Assembly (NCBI GenBank): GCA_028691835.1
Contig: JAQUYN010000024.1
Coordinates: 1-32,920 of the forward strand
Length of the DNA: 32,920 bases
Source of the DNA: Alphaproteobacteria bacterium
GTDB lineage: Bacteria; Pseudomonadota; Alphaproteobacteria; UBA9219
Direction: 5' to 3'
Shown here: piece by piece, positions 6,773-31,093 of the stretch
How positions within the stretch are numbered: position 1 is the stretch's first letter
Layout of the letters: each line of letters opens with the position of its first letter
Position numbers and translations under genes: made by a program
Notes under the pieces: model-generated
The model's database searches: none
Told to the model about the DNA's origin: nothing
Seen by the model: only the letters and a program-made list of their open reading frames with translations

Positions 6773-6779
6773 GATTTAC

Positions 6780-9599: not shown

Positions 9600-9613
9600 G
9601 ATAGAACCTCCAA

Positions 9614-12502
9614 CTAAATGAACATTTCGGTTTGTGAGTTGACATGGCCAGCTTCATGCGAGGCACCATCGATGCCTGTCCACGCAACGACAAGTTCGTT
9701 ATAGGCGCGGGCTTCTTCCGCCCAGCCTTTACGTTCGCACAGCGTGTGCAGACGATATGCGAGCGCGCGGATAGGTTCGGCGCGATCCGGCATGCGGGCC
9801 AGCAATCCGCCGGCAGCAGATTGGCCATCTTGATTCAATGCGCGGATAAGTTGGTGCAATGCTTCCCAAACGGGGACGCGGTCATCACGATCTGGGCTCC
9901 AATCGCTCGGTAATTCCGCCCATTTCAGGAGGCGAAGCTGTCCGGCGCTGCTTTGGATAACACCGGCGTGAACCAGCCCATCAACGCTGGTTCCTTTGGC
10001 GCGAGCCAGAACATCGGCATCGCCATATTTGCCCGTGCCCCAGCCGATGCCCTCAAACCAGTGCAGGCAAAATTGCGTATCATGGTCAAAATCGTCTTCG
10101 GCAAGGAAGCGGTTGATCAATTGGAGCGCAGTTTTAACCGTCATCGGCTTACCGTCGGCTTCAACTACGGCGGCATATTTGCTGAAAATCGCCATGCCAG
10201 GGCCGATAATGGCCTGCGAAAGGTCAACTGGGGCCACGGGTGAATTCACACCGCCGCGTGTCATTTCATCCAACGCGTCCGGCAAAGCGGCGTTCAGCTC
10301 ACGGATAAATTCACGACGACCAATTGTCTCAACTTCGACTTTACGCTTGCGGCAAACAAGAACAATGCTGGAAGCAAGAGCGTTCTTTCCTGAGCCTATC
10401 AATCTGTTGCCAAGTTCTGTGCGCATTGGCCATGTGCCGTTTATAGCGAAGCCTGCGGAGATGACAGCTTGTAGAAAAGTCATCCACCCTGTACTTGAGG
10501 TGCCTTCATTCTCAGAAGTTTCTGACTGCTTGAAAGCATAATAGATACTCACAGGAAATGCTGGATGTGATTTATCGACAAGATTTTGAATAGCAACTTT
10601 CATTCCTTCAAGGAAGAAATCTTCTGCTTTTGTTTTTCCTCCATGCCTATAGGACGAAGCAATAAGCTCTTCATCTTTCGGAGTTATAAGTGTGGAATAT
10701 ATCTCTGGATAAATTTCCTTAAGCGTTCTACGCAACCATACATAAAAGTAATCAGAAAGATCGGCATATGCGATATTGTCGTAGTACGGTGGATCGGTTG
10801 AAATAACCTTATTTAAGGATATATTTTGTTTTTGTGCATCTGCTTGAAAAACGCACCCAGTCGATGAAATATTCATTTCATTTAGAACGCGCATCATGTT
10901 CTTTAATGAGACCATATAATCTCCCGCCATACCCGCAAAACAATTCGCCTCAGAAAAATCCCAAACCATTGGGAGCGCTTGCCTACCAAAGGTACCTATC
11001 GACTGATCCATGCTTGGTTTCCATCTGCACAAGGAGCTTTGCGCATCAGACATCTTACTTACCGCAAGAGCCAAATACACACCTACTGCTTGAGAGTATG
11101 CTGTCGCGGCTTTTCCACCATCAGAGAGATTAATTTTATCATCCGTGTGACCCATGTTCATTAGGTCTTGATGGCACTTTCTTATAGCCTCTGCTGCAAG
11201 ATCAGAAAAACACGATAGGCAAGCTAACTGTCTTTGTGTGAACAGGTCGGACCAATTATAAAAACCATATCCGCGTCCGCTGACTAGATCCCTGCTATCT
11301 CTATTCATCGGCTGAGAAGGATACCAGGTAGGCTTTGCTTGCTTGGCAAGAAGCTCATGTTCTTCTATCGCGGGCAGGTAAATTCTTCCGCTTTTTGTTT
11401 CTGCGACAATCGCCATCAGCCTTGTTGATAGTTTTCCTTCTAAACTAGCATTCTTAATGTACACATCTTCAATAGGTGTTTCAGAGAGCAGGCATCTAAA
11501 ATTTGCCCCACGAGATAATTTTGTGCCCGTCTCTGCTTCTGCGGGTATTTTTCCATACACAACATCTAACTTTATTGTTTCACCTACTACTTTCGGACAT
11601 ATATATGCCTCTCTGCCAGCCTTTGTTGATAAAACAAAACTTGAACACAATGGCACATCCACATGGCTGAAGGCGGGGTTGGGGCTTTTGACCGTGCGTG
11701 CCCAGAGCCACGCGATGACCGTCAGTTTTTGCCCGATAAGTGGTTTCAGGTCTGGCCTATCCTTGGCAACTTCTTCGGTAATTTCAACTTGTGGATAGAG
11801 GTGGCCGATGCGCTTTTCCGCCTCCGCCCGCATCCATGCGCCATAGCGGCACACATCCTCGGCCAGACCTTTGGCGCCAGACCAATCTTCAATCAGCTTT
11901 TTCTCACGCTCGCCTTCGGGGATGGGGCCAATGGGCTTACGACCCGCAAAGCGCGGGGGGATTTCGATCATTGCCTTGTTGATCGTCACCGCCACGGGGT
12001 TGAGGTCGGAGGCATAGGATTCAAGCCCAAGGCGCTGGGCTTCCAGCGGTAAGGCACCGCCGCCCGCAAACGGGTCGTGGAAGGCGGGGAGCTTTTCAGG
12101 GTTGAACAATTCTGCTGCCTGAGGATGGCCTTTGTTCAGTGCGCAGGTTTCGCGCCAGCTTTTCCAAATCTCATCCCGCGCGGCTTGCAACACCTGTTGG
12201 TTATTCGTGTTTTCCCATTGAACCAGATCTTTGATGATTTTGAACAGGCGCTCGCGCTCTGCCGCTGCCTTTTCCTTCTTCATGCCGCGTTGGAAGCCGT
12301 TGCCGTTTTCAAATCCTGGGTCGTTGACCATTTGGGCAAAAATAACAGCCCGTGCTGCCGCCAAAGGCCGACGCGCCCACCACAAATGCAATGTGCTGGG
12401 GTGGCCATGCCGGATCGACTTTTCCTTCGCCGCCGCGATATTGATGTCGTCCAGCGGCAACGCTACTTCGATCAGCTTTTTTGGGGACTTGATTTGGGTC
12501 AT
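9614..12502 (-). CDS. DUF1156 adenine-specific DNA methylase-like protein
   Basis: 962 residues. The N-terminus [11 protein letters not shown] followed by [25 protein letters not shown] is the DUF1156 signature. SAM-binding motif I is D-P-F-A-G-G-G at 143-149. The catalytic motif IV is D-P-P-Y-Y at 570-574, followed by [15 protein letters not shown], expected for N6-adenine (or N4-cytosine) methylation. The motif order I then IV is that of an N6 gamma/alpha-like arrangement with a long insertion of about 420 residues between them. It probably marks host DNA so the rest of the operon can act on unmarked DNA, but the recognition site cannot be read from sequence. The gap to the NYN gene is 22 bases. 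Confidence 0.87.
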
Positions 12503-12524
12503 TCTCTTTTTACTCTCTATCTTT

Positions 12525-13145
12525 TTACCGCCAGCGGGTGGGTCTCAGAAGTTGGAATCCATCTTGTCTTGTGACGCTTTGCGGAAACTGGCTTTTCCGC
12601 AAATTGGCTTCCCCCAAAACAAAGGATGCTGTGGCAGCATTCGCTAAGGAAGATGAATGTCGCGCTGGAGGGTAAACAACGATGATTTTTTTTCGAGGAA
12701 ATTTTCGCAGAACCGATTGAATGGTAGTCGTTAGATCGCTGTCTCCAGATATAATTAAGGCCACGTCAAAATTGTCATCAAACGCATCGCTCAATAATTG
12801 CGTGGCGATGTTCACGTCTGTCATTTTCTCTTCATAATCTTTCCATTGGGCGCCGCAGGTTCTGCAAGTTCTTGTTTTTTCCAGATAATGCCCATAGTGA
12901 ATGGTTATAAGCGGTTTGGTCTGAAGCGCCTCAAGGTATGTGTTCTGCCGTTGCTGATCAGAGCTGTTGTGCCCGTTCGTACGGATTCTGGCTGTAAAAT
13001 AGTGAGTGGCAGCCAGAACTTGTCCGGGCTTTAACAATCTTTCTGATAACCCTTGCAAATCAAGCCAGTAGTACTTTTTCCAGGCTTTCTCCCTAAGGCC
13101 AAAATACAAGTTAAATCCATCAATGTATGTAATAAGTCGGGTCAT
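12525..13145 (-). CDS. NYN-domain (PIN-like) nuclease candidate
   Basis: 206 residues. The opening [11 protein letters not shown], the central E-K-M-T-D-V-N-I-A and the I-S-G-D-S-D-L supply the conserved acidic residues of the NYN/PIN-like fold (LabA/DUF88 type), which binds a metal and cuts RNA in characterised relatives. C-R-T-C-G-A-Q-W supplies a CxxC that could form part of a small zinc site. The start codon overlaps the stop of a 55-residue upstream gene (ATGA) and has AGGGGG-like sequence just before it. It sits between the helicase and methylase of the defence operon, so it may be an effector embedded in the Hma set. The tail from residue 190 is basic. RNase activity is inferred. Confidence 0.85.
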
Positions 13146-13309
13146 TTAGCCCCCTTTGCAGAGGCGACGTTAACTTGACATTCAGACTCTTTCCTTACAA
13201 TAATGGTATCAACCACGTTGGAGATCGCATCTCCAGCCCGACGCCCTCCAAAAGAGGGCGTTTCTTTTTTGGTCGGAGTTTCAATGTTGGGCCATCTTTG
13301 ATCCTGCAT
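13142..13309 (-). CDS. 55-residue micro-protein coupled to the NYN gene
   Basis: A small gene supported by its spacing rather than homology. Its ATG lies one base after the TAA stop of the helicase gene, with AGGAG about nine bases upstream. Its TGA overlaps the NYN gene start (ATGA at 13142-13145). Without it the operon would have a 165-base gap, out of line with the other junctions. The protein begins M-Q-D-Q-R-W-P-N-I-E, has a Lys/Thr/Glu-rich N-terminal part, F-G-G-R-R-A-G-D-A-I and a short amphipathic V-V-D-T-I-I-V-R-K stretch. No family is recognised. It could be an antitoxin-like or regulatory partner of the NYN protein; that is speculation from the coupling. Confidence 0.6.
   Translation of the reverse strand: MQDQRWPNIETPTKKETPSFGGRRAGDAISNVVDTIIVRKESECQVNVASAKGAK
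13241..13269 (+). terminator. Terminator-like hairpin on the strand opposite the operon
   Basis: ACGCCCTC at 13241-13248 pairs with GAGGGCGT at 13254-13261, followed by TTCTTTTTT on the + strand. A second small hairpin (GGAGAT/ATCTCC at 13220-13234) lies beside it. No + strand gene is seen upstream, so it may stop antisense transcription or simply reflect the coding sequence of the micro-protein. On the operon strand there is no U-tract. Confidence 0.35.
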
Positions 13310-13310
13310 T

Positions 13311-16300
13311 TTACAAAACTCCTGCCAGATGAGATTTTGCCAATAATTGCTCCAAATCCAGATTGATGCTGGAAACCGCCCAGTCGGGTTCTTTGCTGAA
13401 TGGATTGCGGATGTAGTAAGGCCCGTCATGGCTGTCGCCATCGACCAAGACAATCGCCAGAATGAATTTGTCAGCCTGATTGAGGGCATACAAGATTTCG
13501 TTTCTGGTGACCGTGATTGTGTTTTGGCCTTTGGCGCGTCCTTTGACTTCTATGTGGCGCGCTGGCGCGATGCGACCATCATCCGTTTTGAGGAGGCTTG
13601 TAACGTCCCATCCGCATTTTTGATCGGACACATCGAAAACCTGATGTCCCATACCCGTTTCGACATCCATAACAGCACGCATGGCAACTTGTTCGACGCG
13701 CTTGCGGCTTTCCGCGTCAGCTGTCCATCCTGTTTCGCCGCGTCTCTGCAAAAGCAATCCCATCGGGATAACCAACGAACCGCCAGCCACAACAGGCGTT
13801 GCCGAGATGACGTGACGCAAGGCTTTCAACTCTTTCTCACGGCTTTCGCGGCGAGCGGTCAGGTCATCAATGGTGCGGCGAACATTCTCAAGGTTCAGTC
13901 GCGTATCTTTCCCTGCTGCGGCATCATCCTGCAGCTTGATATACCGATCTGACCAATAGTTGATTTCCTTGACCAGCCGTTCGTGGACAGCGTTAAGCGT
14001 TTTGTCGATTTGCCGTTCGCGGCGTGTGCGGACTTCCTCGAAGTGTTCTGGCACCAAGTTGGTTGATGCGTAGGAGAGTGCAAGTTGCTCCAAGTTCTGG
14101 GTGATCCATGGGGCTTGCAGGACGTCTTGGATCAGCTTCGCATCCGCATTTGAGAGCGGCTCCAGATCAAGGTGTGGCGCCCAACCTGCGTTGCTCGCAT
14201 TGCCTTTCGGGTCAATCTCGACAAATCGCATGCACCGAGACGCAATCATGTCTTGATTGCTGCCTTCTTTGACGGAGTGATCGATCATGAAAAGTATCTT
14301 CGGTTCAACACCTAAATCGTTTTGATCAAGGAGAATTGTCCCTTGTTTAAGCTTGTTGCGATGCTGCTCCAGGACAATGTCCGTCACCGACTGCATCAGC
14401 GGGTGCGCTGGGTGGATGAGGCTGGCCATCGGAGCGCCCGCGCGGCTTGTAAGGCGCACGAACTGCTTTTCAAAACAGACGCGCTCGTATTTGCGCAGCA
14501 CGGGGTCAAGGTTGCGACGATCACGACCTGTGATTTGCCGATCCCTTTCACGAATGATGGCGGGGACGTGGGTAATCTCATAGCGGCCTTCTTCGCGTGT
14601 GCGAAGCTCGCCGCCAAGTTGCTGGAAGGCTTGAGAAAAGAATGAGCGAATAAAATAGGGCTGTAATTTTCTGGCTTCAGCCTTTTCCATTTCTTCCTTA
14701 ATCGCAAAAAGACGCCGTTCGTCCATGACCTCTTCACAAAGAGCGTTTCTTGAGATGATTTCTTTAAGCTTATTCGTATCCAGATCGCTCTCGACTTTGC
14801 GAAGCAGCCGAGCGCGGACATTCGGATCATCGCCATAGCGAATGGCGTCGATTAGGAGATCTTTTAGGCTCTTGTCCTCAAAAACTTCGCCGAGAATATC
14901 GAACACTCGTCCGCCGAGAGCCTGACGCTCGACCTCAAGCTTTTCAAACAGCTTCTGGAAGACGTCTCCCTCGCGGGTTTCGTTCGCAACTATATTCCAG
15001 AGATGGCAAACTTCGGTTTGGCCGATGCGATGGATGCGGCCAAAACGCTGTTCTAGCCGGTTCGGATTCCAAGGCAGGTCGTAGTTGACCATTAAATTGG
15101 CATTCTGAAGGTTTACGCCTTCGCCGGCCGCATCGGTTGCGATCAGGACGCGCGTGCCCGGATCATTGCGGAATAGCTCCTGAACTTTCCTTCGTTCTTC
15201 GCGTTTTACGCCGCCGTGGATGACAACAACGGCATCCTCGCTTCCTAAAACGTCTCTAATGCGCAACGCGAGGTAGTTGAGCGTATCTCTGTGTTCTGTG
15301 AAAAGAATAATTTTTCGCTGGCGACCGTCCTGATCGCGCATCTCTGGTGTATTTTGTAGCAGCTTGGAAAGCTCGTCCCATTTTCGATCTTGGCCGGATT
15401 GAACTACTTGGCGGGCTTGGTCGACGAGCCCCTCGAGAATGACAACTTCAGCTTCCAATTCCTGAATGGTTTGTGCGGCTGTAGCCTGATCGACGACTTC
15501 TTCTTCAAATTCCTCATAACGATCCGACGCCATATCATCAGATGAATCCCAAATGTCTTCAGGCGCTGGGGCATCAAAAACGGACTCGCTGATAAGCTGT
15601 CCCCGTTGACGCAACCTCTCATCTTCAATGCGACGCCTCAATTTTTGATGGCGGCGTTTAAGCGATTGGAAGATGGCTTCTGGGCTGGATGCAAGACGGC
15701 GCTGGAGCGCGGTAAGGGCAAAACCAACCGTTCCTTTTCGTCCGCCATCAAGCCGGTCAGCCTTGTTCATTTCTTCTTTGACGTACTCGGTCACAGACGC
15801 ATAAAGGGCGGCTTCCATGTCCGAAAGTTTGTAATTGACGGTATACGCCCTACGTTCCGGAAACAGTGGAGTTCCATCGAATTTCAACAGTTCTTCCTTG
15901 ACCATGCGTCGCATCAGGTCTGATACGTCAACTTTATGAGCGCCATCGCGGAATTTCCCGTAGAAGCGATCAGAATCAAGGAGCGACATAAAAAGCTGAA
16001 AATCCTCTTCCTTCCCGTTGTGCGGCGTTGCCGTCATAAGCAAGAAGTGCCGCGTGATAGAGCCGAGCAACTCGCCTAACAAAAAGCGTTTTGTTTTGTT
16101 GACCTTATTGCCGAAGTAGTTGGCTGAAAGTTTATGAGCCTCATCCACGATAACAAGATCCCAGTGAGTGAGTTTGAGTTTTTCCTGAATATCTTCGTTT
16201 CTGGATAGTTGATCCACCCGCGCAACCATCAAGTCGGCATCCTCAAAGGGATTTCCTCCGCGCGTTTGTTCTTCCAGGCCGCGTGAGAAAATCGAGAAGT

Positions 16301-16832
16301 GAAGGCCAAACTTCTCATACATTTCATCTTGCCACTGTTCGACCAGACTGCCGGGAGCGACAATCAAAACACGCCTGGCATCAGCTCGCATGAGAAGTTC
16401 GCGGACAAAAAGGCCGGCCATAATTGTTTTGCCAGCGCCAGGGTCGTCGGCGAGAACGTATCTCAAGGGCTGCCGTGGAAGCATGGACTCGTAAACAGCA
16501 GTAATCTGGTGCGGCAGCGGTTCAACGTTAGACGTGTGTATCGCCATCATTGGGTCAAACAGGTGGGCGAGGTTAATCCGGTAGGCTTCCGCTGCCAGCT
16601 TAAACTCCGTTCCAGGCGCATCAAAAGACCAAGGTTTTCCCGCTTCCGCTAATGCAAGATTTGCTTCATCCGTGCGGAAAAGCATTCTTTCAAGAACGCG
16701 TCCATCCGATGTCTTGTAATAAACCGTAAGCGCGTTATCGCCGACCTGTTCGGTGGTCACAACACGAACGATTTCTTGTTGTTCAATGCCCAAAACGGCA
16801 GCGTCTTTTCTGATTTGTTCGAGCTTCAGCAT
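13311..16832 (-). CDS. SNF2/DEAD-type superfamily 2 helicase with DUF3883 domain
   Basis: 1173 residues. Superfamily 2 motifs are D-D-P-G-A-G-K-T at 129-136, I-V-D-E-A-H at 228-233, T-A-T-P-H-N after that, A-G-E-G-V-N-L-Q and [15 protein letters not shown] (motif VI, SNF2/RapA-like). A helical insertion near residues 370-470 separates the two RecA lobes. The C-terminus holds a DUF3883-type domain with I-E-V-K-G-R near residue 1094; the E-x-K is reminiscent of PD-(D/E)xK nucleases, though cleavage is not proven. This is the helicase of the Hma set and probably translocates on DNA. Its ATG overlaps the stop of the WYL gene (TAATG at 16830-16834). Confidence 0.88.
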
Positions 16833-17734
16833 TATCTTGTTTTCCTTTCCGGAGCGTATCCCGGCACAAGAACCAGATTTTCAACTCCGTATAGTGCTTG
16901 AGGGTTTTTCAGCCAGAGCTGATACTCCTTGCCTTTAAGGCCATGATCGGTTGTGCAATCCACATTCCATCTGCGCAAAAAGTATCCGGCCAGCGCCGCT
17001 CGGATTTTTATCCTCAACACGCCATTTCGCATGCCATATTCGGCTTCAATGGTATCGGGATGTTGGATGTTTGCTGGGTGGGGAACGAGTTCAAGCTCTA
17101 CAATCCTGTTCCACTGGATATCGTCGGCAAGGGACTGCGTAGCGATAGCACGATCAGGGAGTTGCTTGGCGTCGATTATTCGGCTCAAACTAAAATCTCT
17201 AAACTCTTCGTTCCGCAAATCGTACGCTCTTACGTGCCACCTGTCGCCGTTGTTGATGAAAACAAAGGGCACAATTTGTCTGACCGTCAAACCGCTGGAT
17301 AATGATCTGTAACTAATCTCTGTAACTGTGTTCGAATATATGGACCTACTAACGCACGACAAAACATCAACTGATATGGCTCTCTTTACGTCCGTGTTTT
17401 CGCTAGGTACAACCTTCTCGTGTTTTATGGAAGATACGTTTCCCAATCCCCCCACCAGCCACTGAAGCATTTGTCCGGCAGAAAATTCAAACACAGGACT
17501 GAACCACTCTCCAGCCGTGTAGCGCTTTTCGCTTTTGTTGTACGACAGGTTTTTTGGCGCGATTTTTTTGTATAAAGCAAAGTCCCGTGTTGCGGCTGCG
17601 GATTTAATCCCATAGCAGTCCGCAATGTCCTGGCGCATCGCTACCCCTGTGCACAGCAGAAGCAGGTCTATGTGCGCCATCCTGTCTCGCTGGGGCTTCG
17701 CTAGCTGATCGATGGTCTCTACGTGAGTCTTCAT
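16832..17734 (-). CDS. WYL-domain transcriptional regulator of the defence operon
   Basis: 300 residues from the ATG at 17734, which has AGGGA about seven bases upstream; a 13-residue longer start at 17773 lacks one. The N-terminal 70 residues form a winged helix-turn-helix ([19 protein letters not shown]). The middle (about 115-190) is a WYL-type domain with R-W-H-V-R-A-Y and F-R-D-F-S-L-S-R-I. The end resembles the WCX dimer domain. This is the layout of BrxR/CapW repressors, which control defence operons and are released by a ligand, thought to be nucleic acid or a nucleotide. It is the first gene of the operon and overlaps the helicase start, so it likely controls its own unit. Confidence 0.87.
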
Positions 17735-17815
17735 TTTGATTCCCTGTTGGCATGAGATAGAAAGCACGACCATTTTGATTGGTCAATACTCATCATTTCT
17801 ATCACCATACATGTG

Positions 17816-17893: not shown

Positions 17894-18214
17894 TTGGTGG
17901 CTGTTTCTGAGGAAGCAATTTTCTCGGAAGGCATGGCAGAGAAAATTGACTTCCCTTTTTACCAAGATTACGACTCGTCCATGGAAGACACCATCACGTT
18001 TTTGTACGACATCTATGGTCGCATGCAAATGGAAGTCGTTTGTCGCGATGAAAGCCGCACGGCCTACCGAATCATATCAGGACGACGCCATCTGGAACGC
18101 GATTTCGTTATTCCTGACGGGTATTCTGAGAGCCAGATACGCACCTATCTGGACGATATGTTCCATGAAATGGCTCGTCCGGGGCAAGAAATCCGGCTAA
18201 TGCGCAAGACCTAG
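17894..18214 (+). CDS. Small hypothetical protein divergent from the defence operon
   Basis: Up to 106 residues. The start is uncertain: TTG at 17894 or GTG at 17897, or the ATG at 17933, which has GGAAGG but placed too close. From residue 14 it reads M-A-E-K-I-D-F-P-F-Y-Q-D-Y-D and continues with an alternating charged and hydrophobic pattern (R-M-Q-M-E-V-V-C-R-D-E; D-F-V-I-P-D-G-Y). No family or membrane segment is recognised. It shares the intergenic region with the WYL operator and so may be co-regulated, or it may be an ordinary host gene flanking the island. Confidence 0.5.
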   Translation: MVAVSEEAIFSEGMAEKIDFPFYQDYDSSMEDTITFLYDIYGRMQMEVVCRDESRTAYRIISGRRHLERDFVIPDGYSESQIRTYLDDMFHEMARPGQEIRLMRKT

Positions 18215-18242: not shown

Positions 18243-18271
18243 TTGCAGCCGCTAACCAATTGAGTTAAAAT
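18243..18271 (+). promoter_or_regulatory. Promoter of the TyrRS leader transcript
   Basis: TTGCAG at 18243-18248 and TAAAAT at 18266-18271 are separated by exactly 17 bases. Transcription would start near 18278-18280, about ten bases before the GGGGGG ribosome binding site (18290-18295) of the leader peptide. This geometry makes the leader ORF the first thing translated on the transcript. Confidence 0.55.
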
Positions 18272-18301
18272 GCCCCCCTAAAGAAAGTAGGGGGGATCAC
18301 C

Positions 18302-18409
18302 TTGCACCGTACAACGTCCTGTTTGTCGAATTTGGCAAAAGCGCTGCCGTGGCAGTGTTGTGGGATATGCGCCTCCTATTACTACGCTCGGTACCGCATA
18401 AACGGCTGA
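18302..18409 (+). CDS. Tyrosine-rich leader peptide upstream of TyrRS
   Basis: A 35-codon ORF starting with TTG six bases after GGGGGG (18290-18295). Its peptide ends C-A-S-Y-Y-Y-A-R-Y-R-I-N-G: three successive Tyr codons at 18377-18385 and a fourth at 18392-18394, so four of six residues are Tyr. The TGA stop (18407-18409) lies in the 5' arm of a 12-base-pair hairpin. The next gene, 95 bases further, is a tyrosyl-tRNA synthetase. This is the design of attenuation leaders such as those of trp, his and pheST: a ribosome short of charged tRNA-Tyr would stall on the Tyr codons and change downstream folding. The TTG start is the weakest point. It is likely too short to have been annotated. Confidence 0.72.
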   Translation: MHRTTSCLSNLAKALPWQCCGICASYYYARYRING

Positions 18410-18499
18410 GCTTGTTCCTGCATCAGCCGTTTATAAAACAGGCTTGGTGCAGAGCGTTTTTTCAAAACAAATCGGCACCGAGCCTCCAACCAAAGGAGG
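18385..18499 (+). promoter_or_regulatory. Tyr attenuator: mutually exclusive RNA stems before TyrRS
   Basis: Several pairings compete. Stem B pairs 18386-18396 with 18473-18483 (11 positions, one A-C mismatch). Stem A pairs 18441-18450 with 18475-18484 (10 pairs, one G-U). They share the same 3' arm. Inside lies a perfect 12-base-pair hairpin, 18398-18409 with 18423-18434. CCTCC (18483-18487) can pair with the synthetase ribosome binding site GGAGG (18495-18499). In addition CGCTC (18385-18389) can pair with GAGCG (18452-18456), followed by six Ts (18457-18462), a possible terminator. A ribosome stalled on the Tyr codons would cover 18386-18396, favouring stem A, which weakens the site-covering hairpin, and would also disrupt the CGCTC pairing. 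Both effects would raise TyrRS synthesis. The mechanism is inferred. Confidence 0.6.
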
Positions 18500-18504
18500 A
18501 TCAC

Positions 18505-19734
18505 ATGGGTGCTAATGATAAAATGGATTTGGAAGAACTGGCTCATGGCGTGGCAATTATCACTCCGCCTGAAGGGCTAGAGGAAAAGCTCTGTCTTGCG
18601 AAAAAAGAAAAACGCCCCCTAGTTGTGAAACTTGGTTTTGATCCAACGGCACCAGACCTTCACCTTGGGCATGCTGTGGTGCTGCGCAAAATACGCCAGT
18701 TTCAAAAAACGGGTCATAAACTCGTCATTATTATTGGCGATTTCACGGCACGGATTGGCGATCCAACGGGCAGAAACAAAACCAGACCACCTTTATCCAA
18801 AGAACAAGTCGAAAAAAACGCAAAAACATACCTCGCTCAACTGTCCAAGGTTGTAGACACAAGAAAGATCGAAATCAGGTTTAATGCCGAATGGCTCAGC
18901 TCTATGACATTCACAGATGTTGTCTTCCTTCTTTCAAAGATGACATTAGCGCAAATTCTTCAGCGAGAGGATTTCAGCAATCGGCATAGCGCGGGAATTC
19001 CGATTTCTTTACACGAGATTCTATACCCGTTGATGCAAGGACAAGATTCCCTAGCTATCAATGCGGATATTGAAATAGGCGGAACTGACCAGTTGTTTAA
19101 CTGTCTTGTGGGGCGCACCCTTCAGGAGGCTGAAGGGAAACTCGGCCAAATCGTCCTCTCAATGCCGCTGCTTGTCGGACTGGACGGTGTCGAAAAGATG
19201 AGCAAGTCCAAGAACAACTTCATTGGACTTACCGAGGAACCGAACCAGATGTACGGAAAGGCCATGTCCATTCCGGATGCATTGTTGCCCAACTATCTTG
19301 ATCTGGTAACGGATTTTTCGTTGCAAAAGATCAACGACATGAAGGCCGCACTGACTGATGGTTCTGTGCATCCGATGGAGGCCAAGAAGGCCATCGCCCA
19401 CAACATCGTCAAACAATATCACAGCGCAGAACACGCTGACGCCGCGGCGCTGTATTTTTACAATCAGTTCCAAAAGAAGGACGCAGAAGACAAAATCTAC
19501 ATCCCAGTGAAAGCAAAAGATGTGTTCCCGCAAACGGGATCCCTAACCCTTATTGCTTTATGCAGTAAGCTGCAGCCCGACGTGTCCAAAAACCAACTGC
19601 GCCGCTTAATTGAGGCGCGCGCTGTTTCGGTCAACGGGAAGAAAATAACCGATCCACAGACAAACGTAGTTGTTCCTGTAGATGCGCCTTTGCGAATTCA
19701 GATCGGAAAGCGTGGATACTTTTCGATAGTTTAG
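18505..19734 (+). CDS. tyrS: Tyrosyl-tRNA synthetase, TyrZ type, leader-controlled copy
   Basis: 409 residues from the ATG at 18505, five bases after GGAGG. It charges tRNA-Tyr with tyrosine using ATP. The class I signature H-L-G-H is at 53-56 within G-F-D-P-T-A-P-D-L-H, and K-M-S-K-S is at 231-235. Residues that in other TyrRS bind tyrosine are kept: the D of G-D-P-T-G, and the Y, Q and D of Y-P-L-M-Q-G-Q-D; the third residue of Q-x-x-D, usually Tyr, is Gln here. G-G-T-D-Q is intact. A C-terminal S4 RNA-binding domain (about 345-409) contains L-R-R-L-I-E-A-R-A-V-S-V-N-G. A structured leader with a Tyr-rich peptide precedes it. A second TyrRS lies convergent to it. Confidence 0.9.
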   Translation: MGANDKMDLEELAHGVAIITPPEGLEEKLCLAKKEKRPLVVKLGFDPTAPDLHLGHAVVLRKIRQFQKTGHKLVIIIGDFTARIGDPTGRNKTRPPLSKEQVEKNAKTYLAQLSKVVDTRKIEIRFNAEWLSSMTFTDVVFLLSKMTLAQILQREDFSNRHSAGIPISLHEILYPLMQGQDSLAINADIEIGGTDQLFNCLVGRTLQEAEGKLGQIVLSMPLLVGLDGVEKMSKSKNNFIGLTEEPNQMYGKAMSIPDALLPNYLDLVTDFSLQKINDMKAALTDGSVHPMEAKKAIAHNIVKQYHSAEHADAAALYFYNQFQKKDAEDKIYIPVKAKDVFPQTGSLTLIALCSKLQPDVSKNQLRRLIEARAVSVNGKKITDPQTNVVVPVDAPLRIQIGKRGYFSIV

Positions 19735-19790: not shown

Positions 19791-20990
19791 TCACCCAGCC
19801 TGTGGGACATATTTTACTTTGACCTTGATCTTTTTACCGACCTCCAGAACTTCTCCTTCGGAAAGGGTCGGCAAATCACCCGGGTCAGATATGGTCGTTC
19901 CAGACACGCGCACCGCATTTTGTTGGAACAGCCGCCGAATGTGGCTGTTAGACCAATCCTTGTTCAGCGTTCTCAAGACTGAATAGCCATCTGAAGCAAC
20001 GGGCACCGTGATGCACGGAACGTCTTCGCTTGGCTTGCGTTTTGAGAATGTGTCAAAGAAAAATTTGTGCTCAGCCTCTGCTGTCTCCGATCCGTGATAT
20101 CTTTCAACGATTGCGCCGGCGACCAAGGCTTTGGCCTCCATTGGATGCAAGTTTCCTTGCTCCAGGGCCATTTTTACCTCTGCAACTTTTTGGTTTGGAG
20201 CGGTCGTGTAAACTTCATAATAGGGCACTATCAATTCATCGGGCATTGACATCACTTTGCCAAATTTATCCCGAGCCGTATCAGCGATAGCGATATAATT
20301 ACCCAGGCTTTTGCTTTGCTTGGCTTTACCGTCAATTCCCGGGGTAATTCGGCTTGTCATAACCGTCTGGGGAGATTGTCCGAATTTTTCTTGGAAGAAA
20401 CGCCCCATGTTCTCATTGAACAACTGATCAGAACCGACAATCGTCAAATCAGACTTGAGCATGACGGAGTCATAGCCTTGGAGCAAAGGATATATCATTT
20501 CGTGCATTCTGATTTCTGCACCACGTTTAATTCTGTCCTGAAACATATCCCGGGCAACCAGGTGCCCATGCGATACCATGGACATCAGGTTCAAAAACTC
20601 CCTTGTTGGCATCTTGCCAAACCACTCCGAGTTTCTCCTAACCTCAAAAACCTTGCTATCGGTACGAAGAACCGTTCCGACCTGCTCAATAAAAGCATCC
20701 GAGTTCTTCTCAATGTCTGAATCCGAAATGATAGGACGAGTTGCAGACTTTCCGGTCGGATCCCCAATGGTCGTCGTAAAATCTCCGATCAAAAAGACAA
20801 CCTTATGTCCGTAATCCTGTAACTGACGCATCATCCACAAATTAACAGCGTGCCCAAGGTGCAAAAACGGGGCGGTGACGTCTACGCCATATTTAATGCG
20901 AAGCTTCCTGCCTTCAGAAAACAGGGTCTCTGCAGTTTCAGAGCCAAATATCTGATGGATGTTTCTCTCGAAAAGTTCTTTCTCAATCAT
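19791..20990 (-). CDS. Second tyrosyl-tRNA synthetase, divergent copy
   Basis: 399 residues. AGGGGG lies five bases before the ATG. H-L-G-H is at 44-47 and K-Q-S-K-S at 224-228, so the KMSKS loop has Gln at its second place. The strand before HLGH reads Y-G-V-D-V-T-A-P, where most TyrRS have D-P-T. I-V-G-S-D-Q replaces G-G-S-D-Q. The Y-P-L-L-Q-G-Y-D residues and G-D-P-T-G are intact, and an S4 domain (I-R-R-L-F-Q-Q-N-A-V-R-V-S-G) ends the protein, so it is probably active. A paralogue beside another TyrRS and biosynthetic genes suggests self-resistance or a dedicated role. Which copy is the housekeeping enzyme cannot be decided here. I saw no Tyr leader upstream of this copy. Confidence 0.87.
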   Translation of the reverse strand: MIEKELFERNIHQIFGSETAETLFSEGRKLRIKYGVDVTAPFLHLGHAVNLWMMRQLQDYGHKVVFLIGDFTTTIGDPTGKSATRPIISDSDIEKNSDAFIEQVGTVLRTDSKVFEVRRNSEWFGKMPTREFLNLMSMVSHGHLVARDMFQDRIKRGAEIRMHEMIYPLLQGYDSVMLKSDLTIVGSDQLFNENMGRFFQEKFGQSPQTVMTSRITPGIDGKAKQSKSLGNYIAIADTARDKFGKVMSMPDELIVPYYEVYTTAPNQKVAEVKMALEQGNLHPMEAKALVAGAIVERYHGSETAEAEHKFFFDTFSKRKPSEDVPCITVPVASDGYSVLRTLNKDWSNSHIRRLFQQNAVRVSGTTISDPGDLPTLSEGEVLEVGKKIKVKVKYVPQAG

Positions 20991-21265: not shown

Positions 21266-22309
21266 ATGGAATATAGGTTTCTGGGGCGCACGGGGCTGCG
21301 CGTATCCGTTCTTGGCATGGGGACGATGACCTTCGGCGGTTCCGGGAGCCCTTTTTTCGAAGGCGTTGGGGGTACTAATTTGGCGGATGCCCAACGGATG
21401 TTCGATATGGCGGTGGATATCGGGATAAATTTATTCGACTCTGCCGACGTATATTCCAGAGGCATTTCTGAGGAAATGCTGGGCACCATTTCAACCAGCA
21501 AAAGAGATTCCATACTGCTCGCCACGAAATGCCATGGGCGCATGAATGATGAGCCCAACAACCTAGGGCTTTCGCGGCACCATATCATGTCAGGCTGCGA
21601 AGCAAGCTTACGTAGACTTAAGACTGATCATATCGATTTGTATCAAACTCATGGTTTTGACGCTTATACGGCATGGGAAGAAACTCTTCGCGCTTTTGAC
21701 GACCTGATTAAACAGGGGAAGGTCCGTTACATAGGCTGCTCCAATTTGTCGGCGTGGCAACTGATGAAGGCGCTGGGCGTGTCCGAGCGCAATAATATGA
21801 ACCGTTTCGTCGCCCTGCAGGCGAACTACAACTTGGTTGCTCGAGAAGCCGAACACGAGTTGCTGCCGTTGTGCCTCGATCAGAGTTTAGGTTTTCTGGT
21901 ATGGAGCCCCTTGGCCGGAGGGTACTTGACCGGCAAATACAACGCCTCCTCAAACGACGCTCAAGCACAAGGACGGCGCAATGCGATCGGAGACCAAGGA
22001 ACCATCGACGAAACCCAAGGGAAACGGATACTCGACGTTATGAGCGAAATTGCATCCGCGCATAATGCTTCTTTGGCTCAAGTTGCCTTGAATTATCTCG
22101 TTTCGAAGAAACAAATTTCGTCGGTTCTAATTGGAGCTAAAACCATAAACCAATTTCAAGATAATATCTCGTGCATCAATTGGTCTCTTAGTGAAGAAGA
22201 ATTTAAGTGCCTCAACGATGTGAGTGAAAGGCCTTTACCTTATCCTTATTGGCATCAAAAGCAGCATAACGCCAGAAGATACAAGGCGGTTGATCTCTAT
22301 CGGGAATAG
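21266..22309 (+). CDS. Aldo/keto reductase
   Basis: 347 residues. It is expected to reduce an aldehyde or ketone with NADPH in the cytoplasm. The catalytic tetrad is visible: Asp58 and Tyr63 in F-D-S-A-D-V-Y-S, Lys88 in L-A-T-K-C-H-G and His129 in Y-Q-T-H-G-F-D. The N-terminal Y-R-F-L-G-R-T-G-L-R-V-S and the cofactor-binding V-L-I-G-A-K-T are typical of the YajO/Tas-like AKR branch. AGGCGGGGG lies upstream of the start. It follows its own promoter, is divergent from the second TyrRS and convergent with the MFS gene, so its link to the biosynthetic operon is only positional. The substrate is unknown. Confidence 0.88.
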   Translation: MEYRFLGRTGLRVSVLGMGTMTFGGSGSPFFEGVGGTNLADAQRMFDMAVDIGINLFDSADVYSRGISEEMLGTISTSKRDSILLATKCHGRMNDEPNNLGLSRHHIMSGCEASLRRLKTDHIDLYQTHGFDAYTAWEETLRAFDDLIKQGKVRYIGCSNLSAWQLMKALGVSERNNMNRFVALQANYNLVAREAEHELLPLCLDQSLGFLVWSPLAGGYLTGKYNASSNDAQAQGRRNAIGDQGTIDETQGKRILDVMSEIASAHNASLAQVALNYLVSKKQISSVLIGAKTINQFQDNISCINWSLSEEEFKCLNDVSERPLPYPYWHQKQHNARRYKAVDLYRE

Positions 22310-22333
22310 CAGCGCCCCCAGTACGCTCTGTTG

Positions 22334-23581
22334 TTAGGCGGGCATTTCTTTCCACGAACGCCGCAGTAGAGCTGCGCTGGGGATTGCCAAGATGCCGCCG
22401 CCTATGCCGATAAATAGGAGCGCCTCGTTGAGGCTAAAAGCATTCGCGGCATACCCAAGCAAGGGAGTTAAGGCGGTAAACATGACATTGTAGACAAAAG
22501 ATCTGACCGAAAGAACCGTGGCTCTTCTTGATGAATCGGTCAACTTGTTTATCATATCCGTGGTAAGAGGATCCAAAGCGCCGAATGTTGCTCTCGCCAT
22601 TAGTAACAATCCCAAACCAAAGGGAGACACGCGGGCACCCAGAACAAAGAAAGAAGCGATTACGATTATTAATATGCCCAAAAGAAGCTTCCGGCTATCA
22701 ACCCGAGCTTCAAGGAGATGAACTAATTTCGAAGCGGCCATCAGGCCCAACATGGAAATCACGTTTAAAATTCCGAAATAGCTGAGCGGTATGTTTATAG
22801 CGGTCTGATAAGGTTGAGCGAACCAAATCAGCGCAAACGTCATGGAGGCCGTCAAGGCGTAAACAAAAACAATTGAACACAAGGGCGGACAGCGCAGCAT
22901 AGTGTCTCCCAAAACTCCTAGGACGCCATTTAAGGGCTTTTCCGTTTCGCAAGAATGCCTTTGGGGTTCAGAAATTGTCATGGAAATCAGAAGCGCGATA
23001 ATAAAAAACGGTAGCATAAGCATTCCGGCCGCCTGTAGATTCCACTCAGCAATCCATCCGCCTAAAACTCCCGACGTCGCCACGGAGAAAAACCCAACAA
23101 TTGCTTGATGACTGCATACTTTTCTGTAGTTTTTAATATCTCCTCGCTCCGCTAAAGAGTCATACGTCAAAGCTTGAACGCTTCCCGAGTTGAAAGCTAT
23201 GCCGATCCCAAACGTTACCTCCATAAGACAAAAATGCCAGAACCCAGTCCCAACAACATAGAAAACGCCGCTGATACATAAGAAGATTGCGCCAATTATT
23301 AAAGAAAGGCGGCGACTTAAAACATCCGCGAAATATCCTGTGGGAAGATCAATGAGAACCAACGTCAACGAATAAATGCCCTGAAGAAAAAATATTTCCT
23401 TTAAATCAAGGCCATGGGACTGCATAAACGGGACAAAAACAGGAACGATCGTCAGGGCGTTCTGGGCAGCGATAAGGGCGTACAGTTTGTTAATGTTAGA
23501 TTTTGCAGACATTCGGAGAAATCTTTCAAGCATAGAACCGGTTGTTTGTTGGGCCGACTTTCGGTAGCTTTTGTATAGCAT
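22334..23581 (-). CDS. MFS transporter
   Basis: Up to 415 residues with about twelve membrane segments. The MFS motif A loop after segment 2 reads L-P-T-G-Y-F-A-D-V-L-S-R-R. No solute can be deduced. Alternative starts at 23533 and 23512 would shorten the N-terminus before the first segment (Y-A-L-I-A-A-Q-N-A-L); none has a strong ribosome binding site. It is divergent from the HAD gene at 23622, sharing a short promoter region, and convergent with the aldo/keto reductase. In this locus it could export the product or an intermediate, as in many antibiotic clusters; that is inference. Confidence 0.85.
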   Translation of the reverse strand: MLYKSYRKSAQQTTGSMLERFLRMSAKSNINKLYALIAAQNALTIVPVFVPFMQSHGLDLKEIFFLQGIYSLTLVLIDLPTGYFADVLSRRLSLIIGAIFLCISGVFYVVGTGFWHFCLMEVTFGIGIAFNSGSVQALTYDSLAERGDIKNYRKVCSHQAIVGFFSVATSGVLGGWIAEWNLQAAGMLMLPFFIIALLISMTISEPQRHSCETEKPLNGVLGVLGDTMLRCPPLCSIVFVYALTASMTFALIWFAQPYQTAINIPLSYFGILNVISMLGLMAASKLVHLLEARVDSRKLLLGILIIVIASFFVLGARVSPFGLGLLLMARATFGALDPLTTDMINKLTDSSRRATVLSVRSFVYNVMFTALTPLLGYAANAFSLNEALLFIGIGGGILAIPSAALLRRSWKEMPA

Positions 23582-23621
23582 TGAGCTGAAACTGGAACAA
23601 CGCGTCTTGTGGAAACCGACA

Positions 23622-24311
23622 ATGATCGAATTAGTAATTTTTGACTGCGATGGGGTTCTTATCGATAGCGAAATTATCGCTAGGAGAGTCGAATCCGAAG
23701 AACTTAATAAATTAGGCTATCAAGTTACGCCCGAAGAAATAACGTTACGCTTCAATGGATTATCAACAAAAACGGCATATAGCTTGATGCGTAGCAAGTA
23801 TCAATACGATCTCCCGGAAAACTACGCGACTCTTGTCAAAGAGAGGATACTCCAAGAATTTCAGACATCGCTTCGTCCTGTTGATGGGGTCAAGGAAACG
23901 CTACCCATGCTTTCCTCCAGGTTCAAGATATGCGTAGCTTCAAGCAGCACCCCCGATAAACTGAGATTGGGGCTCACCACAACGGGACTCTTAAGATATT
24001 TTGAACCCCATTTATTCAGTGCGAGCATGGTTGCCAATGGCAAGCCAGCTCCCGATTTATTTCTTCTAGCCGCAAATTCGCTGGGTATCTCCCCAAATAA
24101 TTGTGTTGTTGTCGAGGACAGCACGTCCGGAATTCGTGCCGCCAAGGCCGCAGGCATGCGGGCATTCGGATTCTGTGGCGGCGGTCATTGCTCCCCAGCG
24201 CACGGAAATGAGTTAATGGCGAGCGGAGCCGATCTCTCTTTTTCTGTTATGACGGAATTACCCCATCTTTTAATTGACGGCTATGTCGGCGATGTTTCGG
24301 ATGGAGCGTGA
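23622..24311 (+). CDS. HAD-superfamily phosphatase, beta-phosphoglucomutase-like
   Basis: 229 residues from the ATG at 23622; an in-frame upstream start at 23571 would overlap the MFS gene. It removes or moves a phosphate on a small molecule. Motif I is F-D-C-D-G-V-L (Asp8 nucleophile and Asp10), followed by the cap domain. Motif II is V-A-S-S-S-T, motif III lysine is in G-K-P-A-P-D and motif IV is V-E-D-S-T-S-G-I. This is the subfamily IA of beta-phosphoglucomutase, phosphoglycolate and sugar-phosphate phosphatases. Its 3' end overlaps the 3' end of the convergent hydrolase gene by about 31 bases, an unusually tight convergent junction. The substrate is unknown. Confidence 0.87.
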   Translation: MIELVIFDCDGVLIDSEIIARRVESEELNKLGYQVTPEEITLRFNGLSTKTAYSLMRSKYQYDLPENYATLVKERILQEFQTSLRPVDGVKETLPMLSSRFKICVASSSTPDKLRLGLTTTGLLRYFEPHLFSASMVANGKPAPDLFLLAANSLGISPNNCVVVEDSTSGIRAAKAAGMRAFGFCGGGHCSPAHGNELMASGADLSFSVMTELPHLLIDGYVGDVSDGA

Positions 24312-25444
24312 TTGTTGGAACGATTTTGTCTACATGGCCCGTCCGCGTTCATCGGCGGCAAATTCTTTATGACAGAACTTAGTGCTAGGCAGGTGCCTCT
24401 CTCAAACAAATCATGCCCGGCTACGGTAATAGCGCAACTTGCCGGCCTTGTTCCGGCCTTCTCAAGAGCATTCACAAAAGCTTGTGCTTGGCTTATGGGA
24501 CAAACTTGATCGAACCGACCGTGAACAATGTGAATGGGTAGATGGGAAAAACTAGGCACATGATTCAAGATATAAGAAGGCTCCATAAATAAATTATTTG
24601 AAAAATAGTGCGTTTCGATTTGAGCGGAACAGAATGCTTTTACTGCCAATGCGGGTTGCTTCATGGCCTCCTCCGGCGGGGGATCTGAAACAAGATTTCC
24701 AATTGCACACCCCCATCTGAACCAGGTAGCTGCCGCTTCCATTTGAAAATCTCGTTCCGATCTGTTGGTCGGCGTCATGTCGAAAATTTCCTTGTAAGCT
24801 TTCAACATGTCATGCCGTTTGTTCGGCGGAATGAATTCGACAAAATTTCTCCATGGACTTGGATAAAAAACATAAGCGCCCGGAGCAGTTACTTTGTGGG
24901 GATTGTCTTCATAGCTGTCGGCATTACCCTGATAAATGTATTTCAAACTGCTATCCAAATCGACGAATACACCTTGCAAGATAAGCGTTTGGATCGTTTC
25001 TGAGTGTTGGACGGCATATGCCATTGCGAGGGCGGAACCCCAGCTGGCCCCAAATAGATGCATTTTTCCTTTAATGTCTAAGGCACTACGGATATTCACG
25101 ATATCGCGGATTAAATGAGATGTCGTATTGTTTCTTAAGGCAGTACGAGGATCGTCTTGAGATACGAGCGGGGAGCTTCTGCCGCAGCCGCGTTGGTCGA
25201 AAAGAATGATGCGATATCGATGTGGATCGAAAAAACGCACAACTTCTGGCTCGCTTGCGCCACCGGGCCCACCATGAAGGAAGACGACAGGTTCTCCGTC
25301 AGGAAAGCCGTATTCTTCCCAATAGATCTCATGGCGCGGGAAATCGTCTACACAAATCATTCCTTTCCTGCTGGGCGACAGCACAGGGAAAGACCAATCT
25401 GATTCAGTGGCTCTGCTGGTTTCTGGCGCAGGTAGATGTTCCAT
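24281..25444 (-). CDS. Alpha/beta hydrolase, proline iminopeptidase-like (S33)
   Basis: 387 residues, longer than the usual 310-330. H-G-G-P-G-G at 57-62 forms the oxyanion region, G-A-S-W-G-S holds the nucleophile Ser134, Asp312 is in G-R-F-D-Q-V-C-P and His344 in A-G-H-D-L-F-E-R-G. F-D-Q-R-G-C-G-R-S is another family hallmark. The first 40 and last 40 residues are extensions; the tail is Asn/Pro/Ser-rich. The family hydrolyses N-terminal Pro peptides or related amides and esters. In biosynthetic loci such enzymes mature or detoxify peptides and amides. It is the last gene of the - strand operon, 49 bases after the radical SAM gene. Confidence 0.87.
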   Translation of the reverse strand: MEHLPAPETSRATESDWSFPVLSPSRKGMICVDDFPRHEIYWEEYGFPDGEPVVFLHGGPGGASEPEVVRFFDPHRYRIILFDQRGCGRSSPLVSQDDPRTALRNNTTSHLIRDIVNIRSALDIKGKMHLFGASWGSALAMAYAVQHSETIQTLILQGVFVDLDSSLKYIYQGNADSYEDNPHKVTAPGAYVFYPSPWRNFVEFIPPNKRHDMLKAYKEIFDMTPTNRSERDFQMEAAATWFRWGCAIGNLVSDPPPEEAMKQPALAVKAFCSAQIETHYFSNNLFMEPSYILNHVPSFSHLPIHIVHGRFDQVCPISQAQAFVNALEKAGTRPASCAITVAGHDLFERGTCLALSSVIKNLPPMNADGPCRQNRSNNHAPSETSPT

Positions 25445-25493
25445 TAAGCAAGCCCCATGGTAAAAATTGCAGCATGCGACTGCATGGCCGTTG

Positions 25494-26462
25494 TTATAAC
25501 GTCAAACGATCTACAAAATCAGAATGAACTGGCCTGCAACCAGAAATATTTTTGCATGCTACGGATGGATGCAGGACCGCGCGAATGATCGCAGGATAGT
25601 CTTCTGTCTTGTGAATATCTCCAATGACAATCCGGTCACAAGTTGCGTCGGCGGCCCCGTTCCATTCATCGTTGAGTGTATATTTTGGCAACCAAGCCAA
25701 TCCATCTGAGTCAACCAACAAGTAATTTCCTTTGCGGTCAGCGCACCCTTTGAACTCTATTTCCCCTTTGAACGAGTGAGCCTTGGCCGAGCATCTGACT
25801 TCTTTCTGAAGCTGAGAATATTCCTCGTCGCTGATCATAAAATGATCCCTGTTTTTGTATCCAAGGAACCCGATAGGCATATACTGGAACAGTTGCCATT
25901 TAATAATGGACGGATAGGAAGAAAGGATGGGGGCCATTTCCGCTATAGACGTCAGGTTGTGTTTGTGCACAACCGTGTTCACACAAATCTTTGCGCCATG
26001 CTCGTCTAACAAGGACAAGATTTTTTTCTGCTCCTGAAATATGCCATTTCTTCCCGTACGGAAGGTCTCTACAACAGCGGAATTTGGCCCATCAAGAGGT
26101 ATCCCTATCAAATCGACCAGAGCAGACAATTTTTCTGCATTGACTTGTGGCACGATAGCATTGCCGAAAAAAATAGTCCTTGCCGGCCCGAGAAGGGCTG
26201 TGCCTACGGTGTCAAGGTTGATCTGAAATGATCTTTTCTTAACTTCCTCAAGGAGCGATAGTATGTCCGGTCTGGATATGGGATCTCCTCCGCTTATCGT
26301 GACCTTATTGACCCCTATCGTTTTTACGTTATCCAAGAAGTTCAAAATGACATCAGCCTTGACGGGCAAACTGTTTTTGCCAAAGTGGTTGTAGCACCCA
26401 GAACATCTGACAAAACAAGAGCGCCCAACGCTTAAATTTATGCTTAATTGTTCTCTCATCAT
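25494..26462 (-). CDS. Radical SAM enzyme with extra C-terminal cysteines
   Basis: 322 residues. The [4Fe-4S] cluster motif C-x3-C-x2-C is Cys16, Cys20, Cys23, and the SAM-binding G-G-D-P is at 58-61. The C-terminal half has Cys240, Cys275, Cys303 and Cys309, a spacing that could hold an auxiliary cluster in the manner of SPASM/Twitch proteins, with an N-Y-L-L-V-D-S-D-G-L strand in between. It should cleave SAM to a 5'-deoxyadenosyl radical and change a C-H or C-C bond of an unknown substrate. It starts nine bases after the HAD gene stop and can begin at the first or second ATG. I cannot assign it to a known RiPP or cofactor pathway. Confidence 0.86.
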   Translation of the reverse strand: MMREQLSINLSVGRSCFVRCSGCYNHFGKNSLPVKADVILNFLDNVKTIGVNKVTISGGDPISRPDILSLLEEVKKRSFQINLDTVGTALLGPARTIFFGNAIVPQVNAEKLSALVDLIGIPLDGPNSAVVETFRTGRNGIFQEQKKILSLLDEHGAKICVNTVVHKHNLTSIAEMAPILSSYPSIIKWQLFQYMPIGFLGYKNRDHFMISDEEYSQLQKEVRCSAKAHSFKGEIEFKGCADRKGNYLLVDSDGLAWLPKYTLNDEWNGAADATCDRIVIGDIHKTEDYPAIIRAVLHPSVACKNISGCRPVHSDFVDRLTL

Positions 26463-26471
26463 TTTTCTTTC

Positions 26472-27167
26472 TTACAGTTTGTTTTGCTCAAGACCTTTTG
26501 TTGATGGGCGGGCTTTTGCATGAGGAGACACAGACAATATCTTCTGAATATGTGGGTTCCCCGTAAAGCTGGCGAAGTTCTCATACACATAACCGTTCCA
26601 ACCGGCATCATTCGCAACCCGTACATTCGCGGGGCAATCGTCAAAAAAAAGGATGAAATCTTTCCGTGGATCCATGCCCAATGTTTCGTTCACACGTTCA
26701 AAAAAAGACGGGTTTGATTTTGTGACGCCAATTTTTGCAGAATAAAAAATCTCACGAAAAATCTTGTTAAGACCCAACGTGTTCCAAAGATAGCTTGCTC
26801 GAAGAATCTCCTGGTTTGTTGCTAAATATATGTGTACGCCATTGTCAGCTGACTTCTTCACCAAACGAAGAAGATGGGGGTTAATTTTTGCATCCTTTTC
26901 AAACCAGTATTTTACTACGTTTTGAGCGGATCCTTGGAAGCCACGCTCCAGCAAGTAGTCTTGCAACGATTCCAAAAGGCCTGTCTTTCCTTCCAGAACT
27001 GAACCAAATCTAGAATGAAAGAAATCATCAAGCTCCCCTCGGGCAAGGCCGATGTCTTCATAAATATCTTCATCCCAAGAACGTCGTTGAGCTGGGTTGG
27101 CATGGTATCCTTCAACCAAGACTCCATCGACGTCCATGAAGAGGTGTATTTTTTTAGCGATTGACAC
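26472..27167 (-). CDS. HAD-superfamily hydrolase
   Basis: 231 residues. Motif I is M-D-V-D-G-V-L (Asp12, Asp14), motif II Y-L-A-T-N-Q, motif III Lys in V-T-K-S-N-P and motif IV F-F-D-D, so all catalytic residues of a phosphatase are present. A helical cap (about 20-90) lies between motif I and II. The tail from 200 onward is basic and variable. It lies between the ThDP enzyme (27-base gap) and the radical SAM gene (nine-base gap) in the - strand operon. Together with the kinase at 29679 it suggests a phosphorylated intermediate. It differs clearly from the HAD protein at 23622, so the two probably act on different substrates. Confidence 0.85.
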   Translation of the reverse strand: MSIAKKIHLFMDVDGVLVEGYHANPAQRRSWDEDIYEDIGLARGELDDFFHSRFGSVLEGKTGLLESLQDYLLERGFQGSAQNVVKYWFEKDAKINPHLLRLVKKSADNGVHIYLATNQEILRASYLWNTLGLNKIFREIFYSAKIGVTKSNPSFFERVNETLGMDPRKDFILFFDDCPANVRVANDAGWNGYVYENFASFTGNPHIQKILSVSPHAKARPSTKGLEQNKL

Positions 27168-27194
27168 GTTCGTCTCCGCACGCTGCTTGTGGCG

Positions 27195-28925: not shown

Positions 28926-28958
28926 TTTACTTTCCTTTTCTTCTGTTAAGTAGAGTTT

Positions 28959-29654: not shown

Positions 29655-29678
29655 TTCTTCCAAGAAAAAGTGTTCCCA

Positions 29679-30584: not shown

Positions 30585-30643
30585 CTTTTCTTCTACCTTT
30601 GTGACGCGGAGCCTTAAATTGTGTTTCGCTTCTTAAATATCTC

Positions 30644-31093
30644 TCAGTTTCCTGAGCCTCCGCCCATAAGCAATGAAAGCAAATTAGTTTTTCTTGACGG
30701 TTTCTCCTGTCGTTTTGGTGTTCCGCAATAATAGGAGATGACGCCGATGATATTCTTTAAATCTTCCGTATGACGGGTATATCCAACTGCAGATGTGGCA
30801 GCTAAGATTGTTCCATGCCCGAAGCTGGGCAAGATAAAATATGTGCTAAGGAAATGAACTTCCTGTGCATCGAAATCGCATAAAACTTGGTATGCTTCCC
30901 CGGGTCTTTTAGGAGATAAGGCCGTAAATGCGACTGATCCTTTGCTAAGAAAAATCTGAATCTGTGGATCAACAGGATGTGTCCAGAGACCGCTTTCGTT
31001 CACGCAGAAATCCTCAACATACCCTCTGGCGCCTAACTCGTCAAAAACGTCAGGGCTCCTTTCGTATCTTTTGCTTTCTTTCTCACTGGTCAT
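30644..31093 (-). CDS. Unknown protein, first gene of the biosynthetic operon
   Basis: 149 residues. The N-terminus is charged (E-K-E-S-K-R-Y-E-R-S-P-D), the centre is rich in beta-type segments (I-Q-I-F-L-S-K-G-S-V-A-F-T-A-L and Y-Q-V-L-C-D-F-D), and the end is basic with a Gly-rich tail (L-M-G-G-G-S-G-N). There is no signal peptide or membrane segment, and I recognise no family. A Gly-rich C-terminus after a structured leader-like part could suggest a modified precursor, but 149 residues is long for that. Placement at the head of a seven-gene operon supports a real gene. Confidence 0.6.
   Translation of the reverse strand: MTSEKESKRYERSPDVFDELGARGYVEDFCVNESGLWTHPVDPQIQIFLSKGSVAFTALSPKRPGEAYQVLCDFDAQEVHFLSTYFILPSFGHGTILAATSAVGYTRHTEDLKNIIGVISYYCGTPKRQEKPSRKTNLLSLLMGGGSGN

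Follow-up and report, generated by a model that had tools for sequence, protein, structure and literature searches.

The window, a stretch of 32,920 nucleotides that is contig C99 of an alphaproteobacterial draft genome (2.54 Mb, 93.6% complete, 5.3% contamination), carries two converging genes related to tyrosyl-tRNA synthetases (TyrRS):

18505..19734, + strand: tyrZ-type tyrosyl-tRNA synthetase, 409 aa, HLGH and KMSKS motifs intact
19791-20990, - strand: divergent TyrRS-like gene, convergent neighbour, its product 41% identical to that of 18505-19734

The product of the first gene matches TIGR00234 (335 bits) and the Pfam families PF00579 and S4, its nearest solved structure is a Thermus-type TyrRS (1h3e) and both signature motifs are kept in the alignment with its homologues. 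Including the tyrZ-type gene, there are four TyrRS-like genes in the genome. The TyrRS on contig C2 is 67% identical to the 18505-19734 product, and the TyrRS on contig C76, which is of the common housekeeping type, is 29% identical to it. The convergent neighbour, whose end is 56 bases away from that of the tyrZ-type gene, has KQSKS in place of KMSKS and sits on a very long tree branch; no Tyr leader was seen upstream of it.

A DUF7661 gene (17894-18214) lies on the same + strand upstream of the leader region. A defence island on the - strand (3090-17773), made up of a Gabija-like GajB/GajA pair (3090-6772), an Hma system HmaC/HmaB/HmaA (6780-16832) and a WYL-domain gene, directly adjoins the TyrRS pair. 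The cluster at 21266-32878 comprises genes for an aldo-keto reductase, an MFS transporter, a prolyl aminopeptidase-like protein, radical SAM and HAD proteins, a TPP-dependent enzyme, an APH-like kinase and metallo-beta-lactamase-fold proteins, and it could be a biosynthetic cluster beside spare TyrRS genes.

Anatomy of the leader region

The interval between the DUF7661 gene and the tyrZ-type gene contains the following features:

18243..18271, + strand: promoter-like pair TTGCAG - 17 - TAAAAT, read from the sequence, predicted start ~18278
18273..18295, + strand: inverted repeat CCCCCCTA/TAGGGGGG, exactly at the predicted transcription start
18302..18409, + strand: leader peptide ORF, 35 codons, TTG start, TGA at 18407-18409, C-terminal SYYYARYRING
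18377..18394, + strand: control codons TAT TAC TAC GCT CGG TAC, encoding Tyr-Tyr-Tyr-Ala-Arg-Tyr
18384..18462, + strand: predicted intrinsic terminator (stem C), 18384-18389:18452-18457 and 18391-18395:18446-18450, enclosing the hairpin 18398-18434 and followed by the T-run 18457-18462
18398..18434, + strand: 12-bp hairpin, 18398-18409/18423-18434, perfect pairing, 5' arm containing the stop codon of the leader
18440..18485, + strand: stem A, 18440-18450:18475-18485, 11 bp
18483..18499, + strand: CCTCC:GGAGG helix over the tyrS Shine-Dalgarno (SD) site, 18483-18487:18495-18499

A first-pass annotation of this DNA had already proposed a tyrosine-sensing leader here, and most of its anatomical description was recovered: the G-rich ribosome binding site, which is a G-run (18290-18295) six bases 5' of the leader TTG; the 35-codon frame with its run of tyrosines; the 12-base-pair hairpin; the pairing over the GGAGG of the synthetase gene; and two long stems with a common 3' arm, namely stem A and a stem B formed by 18386-18396:18473-18483 with 10 of 11 pairs. 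Two points needed correction. The promoter-like pair has the spacing of 17 that had been described, but its -35 box (TTGCAG, 18243-18248) agrees at only 3/6 positions, as compared with 5/6 for the -10 box (TAAAAT, 18266-18271), and a consensus promoter scan did not call it. Further, the end of the Tyr codons does not coincide with the start of stem B: the fourth codon is within the stem B arm. The 3' arm of the inverted repeat coincides with the ribosome binding site of the leader, and an RNA starting near 18278 would lose most of the repeat arm able to cover that site.

The encoded peptide has 35 amino acids (MHRTTSCLSNLAKALPWQCCGICASYYYARYRING), and its short ORF carries clustered codons for the cognate amino acid upstream of the gene, with TAT TAC TAC at 18377-18385 and the fourth Tyr codon, TAC, at 18392-18394. 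When the leader was shuffled with its dinucleotides preserved, a short ORF with at least four Tyr in six codons arose in only 5 of 20,000 cases, and the reverse-translated YYYARY motif is found in a single copy genome-wide, at this leader.

What the earlier description had overlooked is stem C and the T-run behind it, which together are predicted to form an intrinsic terminator between the leader and the gene. The region 18376-18461 folds into one dominant structure of -36.9 kcal/mol (z -5.7) that no shuffle equalled; a terminator of -36 kcal/mol or lower occurred in 0 of 1,500 shuffles, and the structure adjoining the T-run 18457-18462 is the strongest among the 143 runs of at least five T in the window. 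The 5' arm of stem C starts within the third Tyr codon and takes in the fourth as well. Stem A is exclusive both with stem C, through the common segment 18446-18450, and with the helix covering the SD site, through 18483-18485. The anatomy, this exclusion of A by C and the excess over shuffled sequences are direct results of the computation. Folding with one stem enforced at a time gave a probability of an unpaired SD site of 0.002-0.004 for stem C, 0.42-0.69 for stem A and 0.10-0.26 for stem B. In folds of the growing RNA, stem C forms once 18458 has emerged. When the sequence up to 18394 was masked, stem C did not form and stem A appeared once 18482-18488 had been made; in these folding models the terminator could not form while a ribosome occupied the control codons.

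Tyrosine leaders among relatives of the enzyme

Close relatives provided no counterpart. A search of 33 genomes of the order revealed no homologous leader; within the order, the clade of the window TyrRS is present only in the genus, and a Tyr-rich leader is absent from the four other same-clade TyrRS genes of the genus (that on contig C2 of the same genome and those of G002, G003 and G005). Searching the DNA of 59 relatives with the leader returned only chance matches of 15-36 bases, a search of plasmid DNA found nothing, and neither did searches of viral contigs, whether by protein or by motif. Among 337 genomes of the class, six besides that of the window contained YYYARY. This rate did not exceed that of the reversed control, and in none of the six was the motif beside a TyrRS gene. 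A leader of this kind is absent from 26 tyrS-type genes of the class. Short YYYARY ORFs away from TyrRS are seen in the class members L218 and L221. In another alphaproteobacterial family (L043), a Tyr-rich mini-ORF (MLNTVTYAVYSYYYGL) lies ~230 bases upstream of a related TyrRS match, with no clear terminator. On a Pantoea dispersa plasmid (L196), a tyrS gene with 50% identity adjoins a TylF-type methyltransferase gene and a B12-binding radical SAM gene.

The comparative support came from another phylum. The upstream regions of 96 homologous TyrRS genes were scanned for short ORFs enriched in one amino acid, taking each amino acid in turn, and the regions with Tyr-rich leaders were nearly all from Bacteroidota; the same scan yielded 0-3 regions with such a run for the other similar two-codon amino acids, and 6 for lysine. 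The Bacteroidota branch falls in the same clade as the window TyrRS with support of 100. A conserved leader, LNSILRLPFFS-YY, precedes the same-clade TyrRS in ~50 Bacteroidota genomes (35 distinct aligned sequences and 15 more) belonging to Weeksellaceae, Sphingobacteriaceae, Chitinophagaceae and Fluviicola, and its YY is invariant across the aligned set, even where FF has been lost (L062). Standard pairs occupy 225/244 cells of the protector, 242/245 of the antiterminator and 317/329 of the terminator helix, figures obtained by counting pairs in an alignment that the authors selected and not by a formal covariation test, and two-sided changes (U-A/C-G, G-C/A-U) are present in these helices. 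A separate antiterminator of the trp type is found in the Bacteroidota relatives.

Mapping the presence of Tyr leaders on the tree required 4 changes as compared with 16.9 in shuffles; six housekeeping tyrS genes of the same Bacteroidota genomes have no such leader, and Bacteroidota TyrRS genes outside the clade (L138-L148) are without it. Genome-wide, counts of the Bacteroidota leader motif were only modestly above control. A Rufibacter TyrRS gene (L055) is preceded by a different Tyr-rich leader (MTLHQQSFYPYAAYSTYYPIVVAWDCYS) and then by a strong terminator. An Rfam search of ten Bacteroidota loci gave nothing at the gathering threshold, and the Bacteroidota Tyr leader is a family for which neither Rfam nor the open-access literature searched has a description. 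It shares with the window the enzyme clade, the cognate Tyr codons and a terminator before the gene. In contrast, it has its own conserved core and the classical order of protector, antiterminator and terminator, and the two leaders show no detectable sequence homology: that of the window lacks the LNSILRLPFF core and is arranged differently from the Bacteroidota 1:2, 2:3 and 3:4 pairings.

The proposed switch and its alternatives

We consider it probable that the region upstream of 18505 is a ribosome-mediated, tyrosine-specific leader-peptide attenuator of the second (tyrZ-type) TyrRS. The match of the Tyr codons to the amino acid of the downstream gene and their overlap with the terminator arm speak for it; the TTG start of the leader, the poor -35 box, the lack of this leader at the four other same-clade TyrRS genes of the genus and the different layout of the Bacteroidota attenuator speak against it. 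The idea in the first-pass annotation that a shortage of Tyr-tRNA induces the TyrRS gains support from the Bacteroidota homologues, but the switch has to be revised, and folding indicates that it is most likely transcription termination at stem C and its T-run. We infer leader translation, stalling, termination and induction as follows. The 35-codon leader would be translated while the RNA is being made. With ample Tyr-tRNA, the ribosome would clear the Tyr codons and allow 18384-18395 to pair with 18446-18457, and once stem C had formed RNA polymerase would stop at the T-run. Under a shortage of charged tRNA-Tyr, the ribosome would stall on TAT TAC TAC GCT CGG TAC. Because these codons overlap the 5' arm of the terminator, the stalled ribosome would cover that arm, transcription would run on and TyrRS expression would be freed. 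The released 3' arm could then form stem A, break the CCTCC:GGAGG helix and permit translation of the synthetase.

The opening of the SD site by stem A is a plausible second layer in the folding models. Since stem C hides the site and stem A opens it, termination and site hiding would act in the same direction. At equilibrium, the SD site of the RNA extending to 18545 is still hidden even with the Tyr region masked (0.04 unpaired), so that this second layer would need the RNA to be kinetically trapped in stem A, whose persistence is of no consequence for the termination layer. No separate antiterminator hairpin of the trp type lies before the T-run, and the 3' arm of stem A is located 3' of it; the element is for this reason not classed with the trp-type attenuators, and the ribosome is proposed to occlude the terminator arm directly.

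An unlikely alternative is the purely translational scheme of the first-pass annotation, in which the stall blocks stem B, stem A frees the SD site and termination plays no role. Stems A and B and the CCTCC:GGAGG pairing do exist and the SD site is more accessible with A enforced than with B, but the probability of stem B in competition with stem C is ~0, which rules it out as the main OFF state, and the scheme leaves out a stem of -36.9 kcal/mol followed by six T. Somewhat less likely again is an ordinary 5' UTR that combines the terminator of an upstream transcript with a chance ORF and senses no amino acid. The same-strand gene at 17894-18214, the weak -35 box, the TTG start and the lack of conservation in the order are compatible with such a UTR, whereas the cognate identity of the amino acid, the overlap of its codons with the terminator arm, the rarity in shuffles and the use of the same amino acid by the same-clade Bacteroidota leaders argue against it. 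TyrRS genes are frequent T-box targets, and GGTACCGC at 18390 resembles a T-box core. A T-box riboswitch reading tRNA-Tyr directly, as in Bacillus tyrS and tyrZ, is nevertheless very improbable, as the window has no T-box stem I/antiterminator architecture and no Rfam match to a T-box even at E up to 10, and T-boxes are not characterized by a coding leader in which Tyr codons cluster. Rfam returned nothing at the gathering threshold for the window, and a weak L31 match (E 2.5) was taken as chance. Equally remote is the reading that the region encodes an extended N-terminus of the synthetase starting at GTG 18349: the frame is open to that point, but the ATG at 18505 has a strong GGAGG site and is close to where the homologues start, and the extension would run through the terminator.

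Relation to known synthetase leaders

The attenuator of pheST is built on a classical antiterminator/terminator pair. Leader peptides are known to control the synthetase genes pheST, trpS and leuS (PMC1262725). The gamma-proteobacterial pheST attenuator (PMC1262725) resembles the window element in that an aminoacyl-tRNA synthetase gene is under the control of a leader peptide that contains cognate codons; in contrast, it responds to phenylalanine, and the window element has its codons in the terminator arm itself. In Bacillus, the duplicated hisS gene hisS*/hisZ is under a histidine leader peptide (PMC2965389). The parallel is that of a duplicated synthetase with a cognate leader in a lineage otherwise under T-box control for that gene, although the amino acid is histidine, the lineage is Firmicutes and there is no sequence similarity to the window element. 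Attenuators have been described for trpS2 and leuS in Streptomyces (PMC1262725), and the TrpRS1 of S. coelicolor is, according to work cited in PMC9437257, inducible and indolmycin-resistant. These systems likewise place a second, inducible synthetase under leader attenuation, but for Trp and Leu and in Actinobacteria, and the resistance role is that of TrpRS1. The auxiliary TyrRS of B. subtilis, tyrZ, also has a regulatory RNA leader; as cited in PMC9437257, it is controlled by a T-box and a MarR regulator (Williams-Wagner 2015), unlike the window element, and involves no leader peptide.

No TyrRS under a leader peptide was found in the open-access literature searched, in agreement with the first-pass annotation, which knew of no such case for TyrRS in this type of organism. 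The window element is very probably a leader-peptide attenuator that lacks an antiterminator hairpin before the terminator, that is, a known mechanism acting on a new target, and it extends leader-peptide attenuation to tyrosine and TyrRS. Whether Tyr leader attenuation is a recurrent control of one auxiliary TyrRS clade in two phyla, with the alphaproteobacterial form as a two-layer variant in which the ribosome covers the 5' arm of the terminator and the freed 3' arm opens the ribosome binding site, appears to us evenly balanced. A housekeeping TyrRS is also present in each genome checked (6/6 Bacteroidota genomes and that of the window), and for this reason the attenuated TyrRS is probably an inducible spare for conditions in which tyrosine is short or the main enzyme is inhibited, which would make it comparable to the inducible resistant TrpRS.
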